64,000 nucleotides of DNA, from assembly GCF_020532805.1 (NCBI RefSeq), contig NZ_MQTQ01000021.1, positions 1-64,000 on the forward strand, written 5' to 3'. Every line of letters begins with the position of its first letter. Positions within the stretch are counted from its first letter, which is position 1. The notes under the pieces were generated by a model. That model made no database searches. It was given only the letters and a program-made list of their open reading frames with translations, and was not told the DNA's origin. The stretch comes from Arthrobacter sp. SO5. Lineage in GTDB: Bacteria > Actinomycetota > Actinomycetes > Actinomycetales > Micrococcaceae. Positions 33,515 to 41,519 of this stretch are shown here, in pieces. Both the position numbers and the translations under genes were made by a program.

Positions 33515-34675
33515 TTAGCTGGCGAGCCAGATGTCCGGGCCGAAGACCTCGTAGTGGATTTTGGTGGCCGGGATGCCGGCGTTGATGGCCTCGTTGCGGA
33601 TGTGCTTCATGAAGGGCAGCGGTCCGCAGAGGTACAGCGACGCGTTGGCGGGAAGGTCCACTTCGCGCAGGGTCATGAAGCCTTCCCTGGCCCCGGCTTC
33701 CGGGCGCTCCAGCCAGAGCTGGAGGTCGGCGCCATCGAGGCGTTCGACGTCGTCGGTCATCTGGGAGCGCAGTGCCCAGCTCTCCAGATCGCTCTCCGCA
33801 TGCAGGACCAGGACCTGGCGGTCCGAGCCGGACTCGGCGAGGGAGCGCAGGATGGACGCCGTGGGGGTGCAGCCGATGCCGGCGGAGGCCAGGATCACCG
33901 GGCTGTCGCCTTCCTTGAGGGTGATCTCACCGTAGGGGTTGGAGATTTCCAGGACGTCGCCGACCTCGACGGTGTTGTGCAGCACGGGGGAGACCTCGCC
34001 GCCGTCGTCGATTTTGGTGGTGAAGCTGCGGCTGGCGCCCGCGTCGCCGGAGAGGGAGTACTGGCGGACCTGGCGCAGGCCGTCCGGCAGGGTGACCTTA
34101 ACGCTGACGTACTGGCCCGGCAGGGCCGGCGTGATGGGGGTGTCGTCCGCCGGTTCCAGGGTGAAGGTCATGGAGCCCGTGCCGGCGGGGGCCTTGGCGG
34201 CAACCCTCCACGGGGTCCACATCACGCCGTTGGCCTGCGCGGCGTAGAGGCCCTTTTCAAGCTTGATCAGCGCGTCGGCCATGAGCCAGTACACCTCGGT
34301 CCAGGCCTCGGCGATTTCCGGGGTGATGACCTCGGCCAGGTCCTCGGCGATGGCGGCGAAGAGGTGCTCGTAGACCACCTGGTACTGCGGTTCGGTGATG
34401 CCGAGGGAGGCGTGGCGGTGTGCGATGCGGGCGAGAACGGTCTCCGGCAGGGTGCCCGGGTTGCTGACGAGGTGGCTGGCGAAGGCGGCGATGCTTCCGG
34501 CCAGGGCTTGCTGCTGGTTGCCGTTGCGCTGGTTCGAGCGGCTGAAGAGCCCGTCCAGCAGTTCCGGATGCGCTGCGAAGAGCCGGGAGTAGAACTTGGG
34601 GGTGATCTCCCCGATCCGGGAACCGACCAGCGGCAAGGTGGCCTCGATGACGGGAAAGGACTTGTCCGAGAGCAT
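33515..34675 (-). CDS. hmp: Flavohemoglobin, nitric oxide dioxygenase
   Basis: Detoxifies NO to nitrate using O2 and NAD(P)H. The 386-residue protein has an N-terminal globin (1-about 140) with the proximal-histidine region IAHRHASLGI, then an FAD-binding reductase domain with RQYSLSG, and a C-terminal NAD-binding domain (ASAGIGCTPTASIL). The ATG at 34675 has AGGAG upstream. An NsrR-type repressor is encoded just upstream on the same strand. Confidence 0.96.
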   Translation of the reverse strand: MLSDKSFPVIEATLPLVGSRIGEITPKFYSRLFAAHPELLDGLFSRSNQRNGNQQQALAGSIAAFASHLVSNPGTLPETVLARIAHRHASLGITEPQYQVVYEHLFAAIAEDLAEVITPEIAEAWTEVYWLMADALIKLEKGLYAAQANGVMWTPWRVAAKAPAGTGSMTFTLEPADDTPITPALPGQYVSVKVTLPDGLRQVRQYSLSGDAGASRSFTTKIDDGGEVSPVLHNTVEVGDVLEISNPYGEITLKEGDSPVILASAGIGCTPTASILRSLAESGSDRQVLVLHAESDLESWALRSQMTDDVERLDGADLQLWLERPEAGAREGFMTLREVDLPANASLYLCGPLPFMKHIRNEAINAGIPATKIHYEVFGPDIWLAS

Positions 34676-34736
34676 GTTGACTCCTGAGATAGTGGCCCGG
34701 GGATCTTCAACCGGACCGATGAAATACCTGCATTTG

Positions 34737-34750
34737 AAATACGAGTATCT
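34737..34750. promoter_or_regulatory. Candidate NsrR site upstream of hmp
   Basis: AAATAC-GA-GTATCT is an imperfect inverted repeat (one mismatch) in an AT-rich patch 62 bases before the hmp start. Rrf2/NsrR operators are AT-rich inverted repeats of this kind. The site is an inference from position and symmetry. Confidence 0.45.
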
Positions 34751-34834
34751 ATACCCTGTTCTACAGGTTGTAGAAAGCAACTTCAAATCGGGCGGATTCC
34801 CGGGCGCGGCTGATTGCGTCTCAGCGGGCGCGGC

Positions 34835-35284
34835 TCAGAGGGCGGGGCGCAGCCCGATGGACTGGAACACCGGGGTCATCTGGCGGGTGGTCGGCAGGGA
34901 GGCGACCACAATGTCATCGAGTTCGCGGTAGAAAGCTTCGCGGGCGCGGGCCAGGGCGCTGCGGAGGAGGCATTCGTTGATCAGGGGGCATGTCCCGCCA
35001 GGGGCGACGCAGTCTGCCGGGTCCAGCCGGGTGTCGAGCTGGCGGAGGAGCTGGCCCACCGTGGCGACGCGCCCGGCACGGCTGATCCGGGCGCCGCCGC
35101 GGCGCCCCCGCTCGACGTCGATCATCCCGAGTTCACGCAGTTTCGCCATCGCCTTGCTGACGTGGTTGTACGGGGTTCCGACCGCGTCGGCGATGCTCTG
35201 GGTGGTGAGCAGCCCGCCGTCGGGGGCGGCCGCGAGTACCATCATGGCGCGCAGGCTCACATCCGCGAAGGCATTGATCTTCAT
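34835..35284 (-). CDS. nsrR: Rrf2-family NO-sensing repressor
   Basis: A 149-residue regulator. The winged helix (TTQSIADAVGTPYNHVSKAM) and the iron-sulfur ligands Cys92, Cys99 and Cys105 (spacing x6 and x5) match NsrR, which releases DNA when NO attacks its cluster. It lies upstream of hmp, its classical target. The spacing between the first two cysteines is one longer than in E. coli NsrR. Confidence 0.92.
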   Translation of the reverse strand: MKINAFADVSLRAMMVLAAAPDGGLLTTQSIADAVGTPYNHVSKAMAKLRELGMIDVERGRRGGARISRAGRVATVGQLLRQLDTRLDPADCVAPGGTCPLINECLLRSALARAREAFYRELDDIVVASLPTTRQMTPVFQSIGLRPAL

Positions 35285-37415: not shown

Positions 37416-39650
37416 ATGGCCGATCACCAGAACTCTGCAGTCCTTTCCCCGTCCGCCCCCGCTGCCGCCCCCGCTGCTGCCGCCGGTTCCGCCGGCGGTT
37501 CTGCCGGCGGCGGCAGGTCCGCCGGGACGCGGGAGCAGGCCCAGGAAGTGCTGCGCGAGCTCGTCGGGCACCCGGCCGCGGAGTTCCACGACGGCCAGTT
37601 CGAGGCTATCGAAGCCCTGGTCGACGGCGGCCGCCGGGCCCTCGTGGTGCAGCGCACCGGCTGGGGAAAATCGGCCGTCTACTTTGTGTCGTCGCTTCTG
37701 CTGCGCCGCCGCGGTGCCGGGCCCACCCTGATTGTGTCCCCGCTGCTGGCGCTCATGCGCGACCAGGTGGCCGCCGCCGCCCGGGCCGGGGTCCGCGCCG
37801 TGGCGATTAACTCCGCCAACCAGCTGGACTGGGACACCGTCCGCGAGCAGCTCGCGGCGGACGAGGTCGACGTCCTGCTCGTGTCCCCCGAACGGCTCAC
37901 GAACCCCGCCTTCCGTGAGAACCAGCTGCCCGAGCTGATCCGCCGCACCGGGCTCCTGGTGATCGACGAAGCCCACTGCATCTCGGACTGGGGCCACGAC
38001 TTCCGCCCGGACTACCGCCGCATCGCGGACCTGATCACGCAGTTGCCGGATTCCGTTCCCGTGCTGGCCACCACCGCTACGGCCAACTCGCGGGTGGTCC
38101 ACGACATCGAGGAGCAGCTGGGCGCAGGTGTGCTGACCATCCGCGGTGCCCTGGGCCGTGAGTCGCTCCGCCTGGGTGTCCTGAGCCTGCCAGACTCCCG
38201 CGACCGGCTCGGCTGGCTGCTGACGCACCTGACCGAGTTGCCGGGAAGCGGCATCATCTACACCCTCACGGTGTCCGCCGCCGAGGACACTGCCCGGCTG
38301 CTGGCCGAGGCCGGGCACGAGGTCCTCGCCTACACCGGCCGCACGGACCCCGCGGACCGGGAACGCGCCGAACAGCTCCTCAAGGACAACCAGGTCAAGG
38401 CCCTCGTGGCCACGTCCGCCCTCGGCATGGGCTTCGACAAACCGGACCTCGGCTTCGTGGTGCACCTGGGCGCTCCGTCCTCTCCCGTGGCGTACTACCA
38501 GCAGGTGGGCCGTGCCGGCCGTGGCGCCGCCAACGCCGACGTGCTGCTGCTGCCCGGCTCCGAGGACCGCGACATCTGGCAGTATTTCGCGACGGCGTCG
38601 ATGCCCTCGGAGGAAAAGGCCGCGGCGGTCCTGACGGCCCTCGCCGAAGCGGGGACCGCCGTCTCCACCGTGGCGCTCGAAGCGCGGGTGGACCTGCGCC
38701 GCACCCCGCTGGAGCTGCTGCTGAAGGTGCTGGCCGTCGACGGCGCCGTGGAGCGGGTAGGCGGCGGATGGCGCTCGACGGGCCGGCCGTGGAACTATGA
38801 CGCCGAGCGGTACGGCAGGATTGCCGAGGCGCGGGTGGATGAGCAGGATTCCATGGTGATCTATCAGGACACGGCGGGCTGCCGGATGGAGTACATCACC
38901 TCGGTCCTGGATGATGAGACCGCGCACGCCTGCGGCCGCTGCGACAACTGCGCCGGACAGTGGTTCCCGGCAGACATCGCCGCCTCCGCCACGGAAGCCG
39001 CAGGTCAGACGCTGAGCCGCGCGGGCGTGCCGATGGAACCGCGGCTGCAGTGGCCCAGCGGCATGGACCGGCTGGGCGTCCCCGTGAAGGGCAAGATCAA
39101 GCCGGCGGAAAGCGTTGCCAGCGGCCGGGCGCTGGCACGGCTCACGGACCTGGGCTGGGGCGGCGCGCTGCGCGAGACCTTCTCCGCCGGCGCACCGGAC
39201 CGGACAGTGGACCCCGGCATGCTGCAGGCCTGCGTCCAGGTCCTGCGCGAGTGGGGTGCGGGCGACGCTCGCACGCCGGGCTGGAGCGGCGCCGGCCGTC
39301 CCGCCGCGATCATCAGCGTCCCGTCCCGCAACAAACCGGCCCTCGTGGATTCACTGGCCCGCGGCATCTCGGAGATCGGCCGCATCCCGTACCTCGGACA
39401 GCTGCAGCTCGAACACGGCGGGCCTACGGGCGGGCGGGGCGGCAACAGCGCCTACCGGCTCGCCGGCGTCTGGGACCGCCTCGTGGTGGGACCGGAGCTG
39501 GAAGCGGCCCTGGCAGCCATCCAGGGCCACAGCGTGATGCTCATCGACGATCTGGTTGACAGCCGCTGGACCGTGACAGTCGGCGGACGGGCACTCCGGC
39601 TCGCCGGCGCCGGCGCCGTGCTTCCGCTGGTGCTTGGGCAGGCCGGCTGA
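37416..39650 (+). CDS. RecQ-family helicase with C-terminal phosphoribosyltransferase-like domain
   Basis: A 744-residue protein. Walker A is RTGWGKSAVY (Lys85), the helicase box is Asp184-Glu-Ala-His187 followed by CISDWGHDFRPDY, and motif VI is YYQQVGRAGRG. A RecQ-type zinc site ends in Cys506-x2-Cys509-x2-Cys512. Instead of an HRDC domain, the last 110 residues (about 635-744) resemble a type I PRTase: PAAIISVPSRNKPALVDSLA, then VMLIDDLVDSRWTVTVGGRAL (cut here; Asp711-Asp712) in place of the PRPP loop. An Ala/Pro-rich N-terminus precedes the helicase. Likely DNA unwinding; the PRTase-like part may sense a nucleotide. Confidence 0.9.
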   Translation: MADHQNSAVLSPSAPAAAPAAAAGSAGGSAGGGRSAGTREQAQEVLRELVGHPAAEFHDGQFEAIEALVDGGRRALVVQRTGWGKSAVYFVSSLLLRRRGAGPTLIVSPLLALMRDQVAAAARAGVRAVAINSANQLDWDTVREQLAADEVDVLLVSPERLTNPAFRENQLPELIRRTGLLVIDEAHCISDWGHDFRPDYRRIADLITQLPDSVPVLATTATANSRVVHDIEEQLGAGVLTIRGALGRESLRLGVLSLPDSRDRLGWLLTHLTELPGSGIIYTLTVSAAEDTARLLAEAGHEVLAYTGRTDPADRERAEQLLKDNQVKALVATSALGMGFDKPDLGFVVHLGAPSSPVAYYQQVGRAGRGAANADVLLLPGSEDRDIWQYFATASMPSEEKAAAVLTALAEAGTAVSTVALEARVDLRRTPLELLLKVLAVDGAVERVGGGWRSTGRPWNYDAERYGRIAEARVDEQDSMVIYQDTAGCRMEYITSVLDDETAHACGRCDNCAGQWFPADIAASATEAAGQTLSRAGVPMEPRLQWPSGMDRLGVPVKGKIKPAESVASGRALARLTDLGWGGALRETFSAGAPDRTVDPGMLQACVQVLREWGAGDARTPGWSGAGRPAAIISVPSRNKPALVDSLARGISEIGRIPYLGQLQLEHGGPTGGRGGNSAYRLAGVWDRLVVGPELEAALAAIQGHSVMLIDDLVDSRWTVTVGGRALRLAGAGAVLPLVLGQAG

Positions 39651-39728: not shown

Positions 39729-41375
39729 CTAGCTGCCGGCCTCCAGCACCGCCATCGCGGCGTTGTGTCCGCCGATGGCGCTGACGGCACCGCCGCGTCG
39801 TGCGCCGGAGCCGCAGAGCAGGATCTGCGGGTCGTCGGTCGCCACACCCCAGCGCTGCGCGGGGGTGTCCAGGGGCGCGTTGTCCTCGACGAATGGCCAG
39901 TCGAGGCCGCCGTGGAAGATATTGCCCCGCGGCATGCCCACCGCCCGTTCGATGTCCAGCGTCGTCTTGGTTTCGATGCAGGGCCGTCCGTCCGGGCCGG
40001 TCAGCAGCAGTCCCTCGATGGGCTCAGCCAGGACCGAGTTCAAAGATTTCAGGACGGCGTCCTGCAGTTCAGCGCGCCTTTCCTCGTTGTTGTCCGCGGT
40101 GATCAGCCGGTCCGGGACGTGCAGGCCGAAGACCGTGAGGGTCTGGGCTCCCGCCGCCTGCAACTCGGGGGAAAGGATGCTGGGATCGGTCAGCGAGTGG
40201 CAGTAGATCTCGCACGGCAACGGGTCCGGCACCGTGCCGGATGCGGCGGCGAGGTAGGCGGCGTCGAGCTGGGCCCAGCTCTCGTTGACGTGGAAGGTCC
40301 CGCCGAACGCCGCTTCCGGTCTGACACTGCGGTCCAGGAGCCGGGGGAGCCTCTTGAGCAGCAGGTTCACCTTGACCTGGGCACCCTCGCGCAGGTGGTT
40401 CGGGTTCTGCCCCGGGCGCGGCGCGGGGGAGCCCGGGGCAGCGCCGGAGTGCCGGAGCCGGTCCAGCACCACCGGGGCGACGTTGGCTAGGACCCACGGT
40501 GCCGTGGCCTCGTGCTCGGCACCATCGTGGCGGTAGCCGACCACGCCGCCTGGGCGGACCGCAGTGACCTCGGCGGAGGTCAGGATCATCGCTCCGGCGT
40601 CGCGGGCGGAGCGTTCCAGCTCCCCGGACACTGCACCCATGCCGCCGATGGGTACGTCCCAGTCGCCCGTGCCGCCGCCGATCAGGTGGTACAGGAAGCA
40701 GATGTTCTGCTGGAGATCCTCGTCATCAGCCCGGGCGAACGTGCCGATCAGCGCATCCGTCAGCACCACGCCGCGGACCAGATCGTGCCGGAGTTCTCCG
40801 GTGATCGCGTGTCCGATCGGCTGCTCGATCATCGCTTCCCACACGCCACCGGCCCCGGCCCCGGCTGCGAGGTTTTTCGCCTCGGACCGGGTCAGGAGCG
40901 GTGCGGTCATAGTGGGCCACAAGGCTTCGGTGAGCTGGCGGCAGCCGGCGTAGAACGTTGTGAAGGCGCGGAACTCGCCGTCCGGAGCGCCGATGGCAGC
41001 GAAAGATGCAGCGGGCGCGCCGTCGTCCCCGTTGTCAATCAGCAGGGCACGGCCGCCGTGGTGCGGGTCCGGCGTGTAGGACGAATAGCGGCGCCGGGCC
41101 AGCTCGATGCGCAGGCCGAGGTCGTCGATGACCTGCTGCGGCAGGAGGCTGACGAGGTAGGAGTAGCGCGAAAGCCGGGCGTCGACGCCGTCGAACGCCC
41201 GGGCTGACACCGCGGCGCCGCCGGGATGCTCGAGCTTTTCCAGCAGCAGGACCTTGCGGCCGGCCCTGGACAAGTAGGCTGCCGCGGCCAGTCCGTTGTG
41301 GCCACCGCCTACGATGATTGCGTCAAACGCGCTGGTGCTCGATGCGGGGGTGCTCTTTACGGGGTTGCTCGACAT
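39729..41375 (-). CDS. NAD(P)/FAD-dependent oxidoreductase (phytoene desaturase-like)
   Basis: A 548-residue flavoprotein. The N-terminal FAD motif AIIVGGGHNGLAAAAYLSRAGRK (broken here at 20: residues 14-36) and VLLLEKLEHPGGAA fit the amine oxidase/phytoene desaturase group. The C-terminus has the second FAD-contact motif LLCGSGARRGGAVSAIGG. No carotenoid genes are adjacent, and members of this branch (pyridine nucleotide-disulfide oxidoreductase domain 2 type) have unclear substrates. The start is the ATG before SSNPVKS with AGGATAGG upstream. Confidence 0.88.
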   Translation of the reverse strand: MSSNPVKSTPASSTSAFDAIIVGGGHNGLAAAAYLSRAGRKVLLLEKLEHPGGAAVSARAFDGVDARLSRYSYLVSLLPQQVIDDLGLRIELARRRYSSYTPDPHHGGRALLIDNGDDGAPAASFAAIGAPDGEFRAFTTFYAGCRQLTEALWPTMTAPLLTRSEAKNLAAGAGAGGVWEAMIEQPIGHAITGELRHDLVRGVVLTDALIGTFARADDEDLQQNICFLYHLIGGGTGDWDVPIGGMGAVSGELERSARDAGAMILTSAEVTAVRPGGVVGYRHDGAEHEATAPWVLANVAPVVLDRLRHSGAAPGSPAPRPGQNPNHLREGAQVKVNLLLKRLPRLLDRSVRPEAAFGGTFHVNESWAQLDAAYLAAASGTVPDPLPCEIYCHSLTDPSILSPELQAAGAQTLTVFGLHVPDRLITADNNEERRAELQDAVLKSLNSVLAEPIEGLLLTGPDGRPCIETKTTLDIERAVGMPRGNIFHGGLDWPFVEDNAPLDTPAQRWGVATDDPQILLCGSGARRGGAVSAIGGHNAAMAVLEAGS

Positions 41376-41396
41376 GGGCCTATCCTGCCATGGCAC

Positions 41397-41428
41397 GCAA
41401 AAGGCCCCGGTCCTGGGACCGGGGCCAA
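41397..41428 (-). terminator. Terminator of tRNA-Ser(GCT)
   Basis: GGCCCCGGTCC pairs exactly with GGACCGGGGCC, followed on the minus strand by TTTTGCG. Confidence 0.85.
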
Positions 41429-41431
41429 ACG

Positions 41432-41519
41432 CGGAGACGGGGGGATTTGAACCCCCGGTGGAGTTGTGCCCCACACTTCATTAGCAGTGAAGCCCATTCG
41501 GCCGCTCTGGCACGTCTCC
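41432..41519 (-). tRNA. tRNA-Ser(GCT)
   Basis: 88 nt without encoded CCA. Acceptor GGAGACG/CGTCTCC, discriminator G, long variable arm, anticodon loop CTGCTAA (anticodon GCT, reading AGC and AGU), T arm GGGGGTTCAAATCCCCC. Confidence 0.96.

Follow-up and report, generated by a model that had tools for sequence, protein, structure and literature searches.

The window analysed here is a stretch of 64,000 nucleotides of Arthrobacter sp. SO5 (contig NZ_MQTQ01000021.1), and the gene under study, rqlH, encodes a RecQ-type helicase fused to a C-terminal phosphoribosyltransferase (PRTase) domain. Judging by its sequence, the protein is a member of the RqlH family, also named PsyrT, in which this fusion is already known. 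It stands without the DprA-like partner, RqlI, found beside other members, and falls in a clade of partnerless actinobacterial proteins from which the full set of active-site residues appears to be absent; the branch of the window seems to have kept the phosphoribosyl pyrophosphate (PRPP) loop and to carry another conserved motif in the flexible loop. We consider, with a probability of about 0.6, that this partnerless chromosomal orthologue is a housekeeping helicase whose PRTase module binds PRPP or a nucleotide and is not genotoxic.

The PADLOC model of PsyrT (PDLC03928) matches the protein over residues 39–742 with an E-value of 1.1e-211. A plasmid collection gave 346 matching records, 11 of them with a coverage of the query of 80% or more; the RqlH of an E. 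coli plasmid, adjoined by dprA, is 41.2% identical to the window protein over 92%, and its K49 and D148 correspond to K85 and D184 of the window protein and lie at the helicase positions singled out in E. coli (PMC4670107). Many DpdF models of PADLOC match as well, including one that covers the C-terminus (PDLC02866, E 4.9e-57). We set DpdF aside: over its full length the protein scores far better with the PsyrT model, and the NCBIfam DpdF model reaches 163.6 bits for a cut-off of 550.

The helicase–PRTase protein, named RqlH, was first described in Mycobacterium smegmatis as a 3'-5' helicase, and there its PRTase is dispensable for the ATPase and helicase activities (PMC4670107). In E. coli the PRTase of RqlH is genotoxic without the downstream DprA-like partner RqlI; changes of the D-I-V-D residues in its PRPP loop abolished growth inhibition, SOS and filamentation, and left a modest effect on viable counts (PMC4670107, 2015). 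According to Russell and Mulvey, PsyrT and PsyrA are the orthologues of RqlH and RqlI (PMC4670107). A repair function or an SOS-like response to invasive DNA was suggested for PRTases fused to superfamily II helicases and coupled with DprA (PMC5512222), and no protection could be detected for PsyrTA of E. coli NILS69 in the conditions that were tried (PMC12409345); the anti-phage function of the family itself is uncertain. A first reading of the window, made from the sequence only, had called the coupling of a helicase to a PRTase unexplained, which does not stand: the combination defines a known family, whose E. coli PRTase is genotoxic unless RqlI is present. The fusion being known, the find is ordinary in itself, yet it takes its place in a comparison that bears on a published open question: many bacteria carry RqlH without RqlI, which Russell and Mulvey found surprising, and their study reported no major sequence difference between solo and paired proteins (PMC4670107, 2015).

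Our comparison set has 79 rows: 51 stretches from a phylum sample, 20 loci from a class search, six plasmid loci and two viral loci; all rows from outside the actinobacteria belong to the plasmids or to the single viral collection. In the phylum sample 59 of the 296 genomes match the C-terminal domain, and the 51 stretches come from 50 of them; left out were the window's own genome, one of the same genus, G252, G305, G117, G266, G311 and G331, while G172 entered via the class search. The latter matched 76 of 148 genomes, many by short PRTase matches only, and two of its loci were dropped, G150 for lying close to the edge of a contig and G460 as partial and interrupted by a stop. We called a protein paired when a same-strand DprA-like match starts no more than 12 bases ahead of the rqlH end and no more than 267 bases past it, and solo when more than 1.5 kb of downstream sequence holds no such match. 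On this basis 21 rows are paired, 53 solo and 5 unassigned.

All 21 paired proteins have the DD pair in the PRPP loop together with Q/N/Q/N in the flexible loop, and 19 of them also have Asp at the fifth place of the PRPP loop. The full active-site set, i.e. DDxxD in the PRPP loop plus Q....N...Q..N in the flexible loop (the latter defined here from the alignment), is present in 8 of the 53 solos. The window protein has DDxxD, and G/N/R/G instead of Q/N/Q/N. In a tree computed from the helicase columns only (IQ-TREE quick search, the fragment L171 excluded), it lies inside an all-partnerless actinobacterial clade of 42 rows, which has a support of 92, the next group within it, of 41 rows, having 98. 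Besides the window protein this clade holds 41 rows (40 solo, one unassigned), and the full set is found in none of them; outside the clade, 8 of the 13 solos and 19 of the 21 paired proteins have it. The DD pair is kept by 27 of the 40 solos of the clade, and every loss of DD occurs inside the clade except that of L160; of the 33 clade rows outside the window's branch, 20 have DD and 8 have DD with the fifth-place Asp. We rejected Fisher tests on such counts (p 5e-5, 7e-6 and 1.6e-9) as independent evidence, since the tree shows mainly one partnerless clade. An Arg in the PRPP loop (SRWT) was also tried as a mark of solo proteins and rejected, DprA-paired proteins of Nostoc and Sinorhizobium having it as well.

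A partner encoded elsewhere in the genome was searched for in 49 genomes: 7 paired controls, 40 solos, and G252 and G305, whose neighbourhoods were not fetched; 11 class-search solos and two solo plasmids lie outside this search. Some match was found in 33 of the 42 non-control genomes (best E 4e-13), and these unlinked matches are presumably canonical DprA. One solo-counted genome has, away from rqlH (G199:C53:38695-38841), a 50-residue stretch 59% identical to Nostoc RqlI.

Closer to the window, a search of genome contigs gave 80 loci, mostly Micrococcales, of which 78 are readable and were tallied by eye; as they were chosen by their likeness to the window, they are not independent. In their PRPP loops the DD pair is found in 77, the Asp of the fifth place, which we take to be the position of the catalytic Asp of 6-oxopurine PRTases, in 75, and the Arg of the seventh place in 74. 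In the flexible loop, P670, G672, G675, G676, N677, S678, R681, L682, A683 and W686 occur in at least 90% of 33 rows, and the alignment argues that the loop of this branch is a different conserved loop and not the product of random decay. The two loci left out, L095 (Pseudarthrobacter sp. Fe7) and L111 (Kocuria atrinae), have an rqlH whose PRTase frame cannot be read through, by a sequencing error or as a pseudogene.

Such conservation of the PRPP loop, with the putative catalytic Asp in 75 of the 78 loci, would also suit a PRTase that is an active enzyme, working on nucleobases or on DNA ends exposed by unwinding, in salvage or in DNA modification; in the model of Russell and Mulvey the PRTase indeed alters a nucleotide in DNA (PMC4670107). 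We nevertheless hold this unlikely: the Q and N residues of the flexible loop of paired proteins are absent from the window protein, and since relatives in the clade lose the DD pair, catalysis is not a common need there.

Within the genus, rqlH is found in all 61 genomes sampled, that of the window included, with best matches of 84–97% identity in the 60 others (in G048 the gene is split over two contigs), so that the reading frame is not due to chance. The gene forms a single-gene unit by orientation: the phosphomannomutase gene upstream is divergent, and the flavin adenine dinucleotide (FAD) oxidoreductase gene downstream is convergent and is not a DprA. The RqlI query finds no match in the whole window genome, and of 31 genus genomes only 3 gave anything, at a marginal E of 3.7e-4 to 9.4e-4; the same query recovers the linked partner in 7/7 paired control genomes (E 5.5e-20 or better). 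Among the matches listed, a second RecQ-type match occurs in 43 of the 61 genomes (41 of them at E 4.8e-56 or better, including G052, with internal stops, and the partial G008; in G032 and G048 only as split or partial matches at about 1e-32) and in none of the 18 others, among them the window's, where the next match listed has only E 4.2e-10.

It is improbable, in our opinion, that the PRTase is still a potent genotoxic effector, checked by the helicase domain or by an unlinked protein, in what would be a one-gene toxin of abortive infection or stress. Such a toxin would fit with the strong conservation of the PRPP loop DDxxDSRWT near the window, with the purifying selection on the PRTase part and with the PsyrT name that PADLOC gives the family, as well as with E. 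coli RqlH, whose helicase domain helps to restrain its PRTase (PMC4670107). Unlike a patchy defence gene, however, the window copy belongs to a set present in every genus genome sampled and adjoins a phosphomannomutase gene kept in near relatives; the flexible-loop residues common to the 21 paired proteins are different in it, and the genome search found no partner of the RqlI type. The sequence-only reading had also envisaged a defence function. For relatives, this idea finds support in the PsyrT naming, the DprA partner, and the BREX and type I restriction neighbours; for the window copy we have no evidence of defence: it is partnerless, lies next to that kept phosphomannomutase gene and occurs in 61/61 genus genomes.

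The protein would most likely be a RecQ-like 3'-5' DNA translocase or helicase with a ComFC/ShosT-like PRTase-fold C-terminus, doing housekeeping work on intermediates containing single-stranded DNA (ssDNA); it is the only RecQ-family helicase found in the window genome among the matches listed. By analogy with the relative of M. smegmatis, its helicase activity might do without the PRTase. For the PRTase module we envisage a regulatory or DNA-handling role with PRPP or a nucleotide as ligand, perhaps also ssDNA, and no genotoxicity, unlike the PRTase of E. coli RqlH, whose genotoxicity is checked by RqlI. More tentatively, the actinobacterial clade may have lost the DprA-like antitoxin, after which the PRTase could have been detoxified by remodelling of its active site; the Micrococcales branch would have kept the PRPP loop and gained the new flexible-loop motif, ending as a PurR-like sensor of PRPP or nucleotides, a link between a RecQ-type motor and the cell's nucleotide state. 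This scenario is possible, with the odds against it.

Several observations weigh against the reading as a housekeeping, non-genotoxic helicase. The tree yields few independent contrasts, 4 if restricted to supported branches and 8 with every branch counted, and the sign test has a median p of 1; the association between pairing and active site, strong in count, is mainly one event. In addition, an intact site is frequent among the solos outside the clade (the 8 of 13 given above), so that losing the partner is not enough to explain the remodelling. The contrast is also weak in the class-search loci taken alone, where the full set is present in 6 of the 8 paired and in 6 of the 11 solo proteins. 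Since the PRPP loop is kept, the domain could still be catalytically live, with a different base or acceptor. Selection on the PRTase part is present but looser than on the helicase part: over 16 Arthrobacter-type loci the ratio of nonsynonymous to synonymous polymorphism (pN/pS) is 0.18 for the former and 0.07 for the latter. A second RecQ could sit in an assembly gap of the window genome (104 contigs, 99.96% complete), and the neighbouring genes are conserved in close relatives only, the phosphomannomutase gene being found in 12 of 54 further genome-contig loci and in 0/51 phylum loci.

The fold of the protein was examined with AlphaFold2, which gave for the full length a predicted local distance difference test (pLDDT) score of 85.0 and a predicted TM-score (pTM) of 0.80, and for the C-terminal 239 residues alone 91.9 and 0.86. 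Residues ~38–516 align with RECQL5 (Z 34.5, 402 aligned, 2.4 Å), Deinococcus RecQ (Z 34.1, 391 aligned, 2.5 Å) and WRN (Z 33.9), three structures that are tied, and the helicase model aligns with E. coli RecQ at Z 29.8. The nearest structure to the tail is ComFC of Helicobacter pylori (PDB 7p0h; Z 13.5, 165 aligned, 3.4 Å); ShosT (Z 11.3, 172 aligned, 3.7 Å) and the adenine phosphoribosyltransferases (from 10.5) are tied behind it. Foldseek also returns PRTase-fold chains for the tail, from a best E of 1.4e-5, with modest TM-scores (0.47 at most). By sequence the identity is weak: the window C-terminus matches none of the PRTase Pfam models at E<1, PF00156 matches 12 of 21 aligned family members at E<1 (best 9.4e-6), and the profile of these 21 rows has PRPP synthetases as PDB matches, at E-values no better than 0.0012 and over the PRPP loop region only. 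By fold, at least in these models, it is clear.

At the other end, Pfam recognizes DEAD (61–230) and Helicase_C (273–369), and RecQ_Zn_bind (472–512) slightly below its cut-off (24.8 vs 25 bits). The TIGR00614 recQ_fam model is passed (223.9 vs 219.8 bits), and the equivalog of canonical RecQ, TIGR01389, is not reached (284.2 bits, cut-off 640.2); no HRDC match is found with Pfam at E up to 1. Residues 373–470 separate the helicase core from the zinc site. A 2012 paper on the M. smegmatis RqlH reportedly sets the tetracysteine zinc site apart from the core by a family-specific linker, and is said to give a domain order with a C-terminal ComF-like PRTase. In the window protein the linker is modelled with three helices and two strands and has a weak HTH_IclR match (E 0.084); it resembles a winged helix lying ahead of the zinc site, whereas that of RecQ follows the site. 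The domain reading made from the sequence alone thus holds: the helicase core and the zinc site are kept (the DEAD and Helicase_C matches, RecQ structures at Z ~34, the four cysteines of Table 1), HRDC is replaced by a PRTase-like fold, and the PRPP loop is the one it had pointed out. The residues 630–744 that it singled out for structure prediction were well chosen, since the tail models as a PRTase fold with PRTase-fold neighbours, ComFC the best of them; an unrelated fold did not turn up.

Table 1. Features of rqlH in the window (positions of the window; residues of the encoded protein)
Feature	Position	Strand	Remarks
rqlH (psyrT family)	37416..39650	+	744 aa + stop; frame open throughout
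RecQ-type helicase core, residues 45-372	37548..38531	+	Walker A TGWGKS (K85), DEAH (D184)
Linker from RecA2 to zinc site, residues 399-455	38610..38780	+	model order H-H-H-E-E, probably winged-helix-like
Helical hairpin and Cys4 zinc site, residues 463-515	38802..38960	+	Cys 489, 506, 509, 512
Segment preceding PRTase core, residues 534-625	39015..39290	+	inside ComFC-aligned range
ComFC/ShosT-like type I PRTase-fold domain, residues 626-744	39291..39647	+	from structure models
Putative pyrophosphate (PPi) loop VPSRNKP, residues 635-641	39318..39338	+	suggested by alignment
Flexible-loop region, residues 665-686, GGNSAYRLAG motif	39408..39473	+	alignment
PRPP loop DDLVDSRWT, residues 711-719	39546..39572	+	alignment

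Among known systems, the RqlH proteins of M. smegmatis (MSMEG_5935) and E. coli F11 (EcF11_3932), likened here to the window protein by published description and not by sequence, share with it the domain order, the tetracysteine site and the ComF-like PRTase tail. That of M. smegmatis is solo, like the window's (PMC4670107); that of E. coli has RqlI, which the window lacks, and the E. coli plasmid homologue has Q/N/Q/N where the flexible loop of the window differs. PsyrT of PsyrTA, a toxin–antitoxin of Pseudomonas syringae, is matched by profile over the full length, but the window genome has no PsyrA/RqlI match and the gene lies outside any defence locus. RecQ of E. coli and Deinococcus has the helicase core and the zinc site in common with the window protein; the latter has no HRDC match and, in the models, its winged-helix-like linker before the zinc site stands in contrast to the RQC winged helix after it.

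ComFC of H. pylori, the best structural match to the tail, is a separate competence protein without helicase, and its PRPP loop reads DDIITTGTTL against DDLVDSRWTV in the window; its PRTase domain also follows a zinc finger, as in the window protein (PMC9005727). This PRPP loop binds PRPP and nucleoside monophosphates, the flexible loop closing the pocket, and the change T165A abolished nucleotide binding and left ssDNA binding (PMC9005727). By alignment T165 corresponds to T719 of the window protein. ShosT has, to our knowledge, no helicase domain; the Z of 11.3 with the window tail is that of its PRPP-Mg bound form (PDB 8zvb-8zvd). ShosTA is, by PDB title, a phage-defence toxin–antitoxin, whose antitoxin is a DprA homologue (PMC9122126); the window has no such DprA-like antitoxin. 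That the helicase serves DNA uptake, as a RecQ-based counterpart of the ComFA–ComFC pair, seems to us very doubtful: among solved structures the tail comes closest to ComFC, which binds ssDNA and PRPP, ComFA of Streptococcus pneumoniae interacts with ComFC (PMC9005727), and ComEC-type genes are present in 21/21 genus genomes, but the window gene is not beside competence genes. Matches to the ComF model, all below cut-off, were obtained in 21/21 genus genomes; they are unspecific, since 14/14 controls, archaea included, match too.

The paired loci have surroundings of their own. On the E. coli plasmid, rqlH stands directly before dprA, and the pair is flanked by the S and R subunit genes of a type I restriction locus (L121:3998-7515); on an Acinetobacter plasmid, rqlH and dprA lie between pglX and pglZ of BREX (L122:3998-7527); a Nostoc plasmid has rqlH with dprA, and a Tsukamurella plasmid a solo rqlH adjoining secretion genes. 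Pairs of rqlH and dprA are thus found within other defence operons. One actinobacterial contig (G104:C10) has two such pairs about 21 kb apart (L155 and L156). On pSymB of Sinorhizobium, a stretch without annotated gene directly after rqlH (L125:6073-6828) is 50.6% identical to the DprA partner of Nostoc, and the rqlH on contig L128 of the viral collection is closely related and comes with a DprA-like match of 341 residues.

Around the window gene, no sigma-70-like promoter was found between 37150 and 39900, with a consensus that may not suit this organism. The phosphomannomutase gene is present in 25 of 26 Arthrobacter-type loci and the small orf 35303 in 24 of them; the latter is found in 5 of the 54 further genome-contig loci and in 0/51 phylum loci. 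A flavohemoprotein gene (33515-35284, minus strand) adjoins an Rrf2 regulator resembling NsrR, and the two are likely a nitric-oxide response pair; they occur in 16 and 17 of the 26 Arthrobacter-type loci, respectively. The CrtO-like FAD oxidoreductase gene (39729-41519, minus strand) adjoins a tRNA-Ser(gct) at 41431-41519; since its frame overlaps this tRNA, its start is further in than listed, and since only 6 of the 26 loci have it, it is a possible insertion at the tRNA.

What appears new here is a partnerless clade without the full active-site set, in which the branch of the window keeps the PRPP loop and has another conserved flexible-loop motif; within the limited literature that we searched, no published account of an active-site remodelling of solo RqlH was found. 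For this actinobacterial clade, the difference that we see in the aligned active sites would disagree with the statement that solo and paired proteins show no major difference. In this Arthrobacter-type soil genus, RqlH is carried by every genome sampled, 18 of the 61 being without a second RecQ match among the matches listed. The comparison thus bears on why a solo RqlH is tolerated, a question left open in 2015 and now testable with few proteins.

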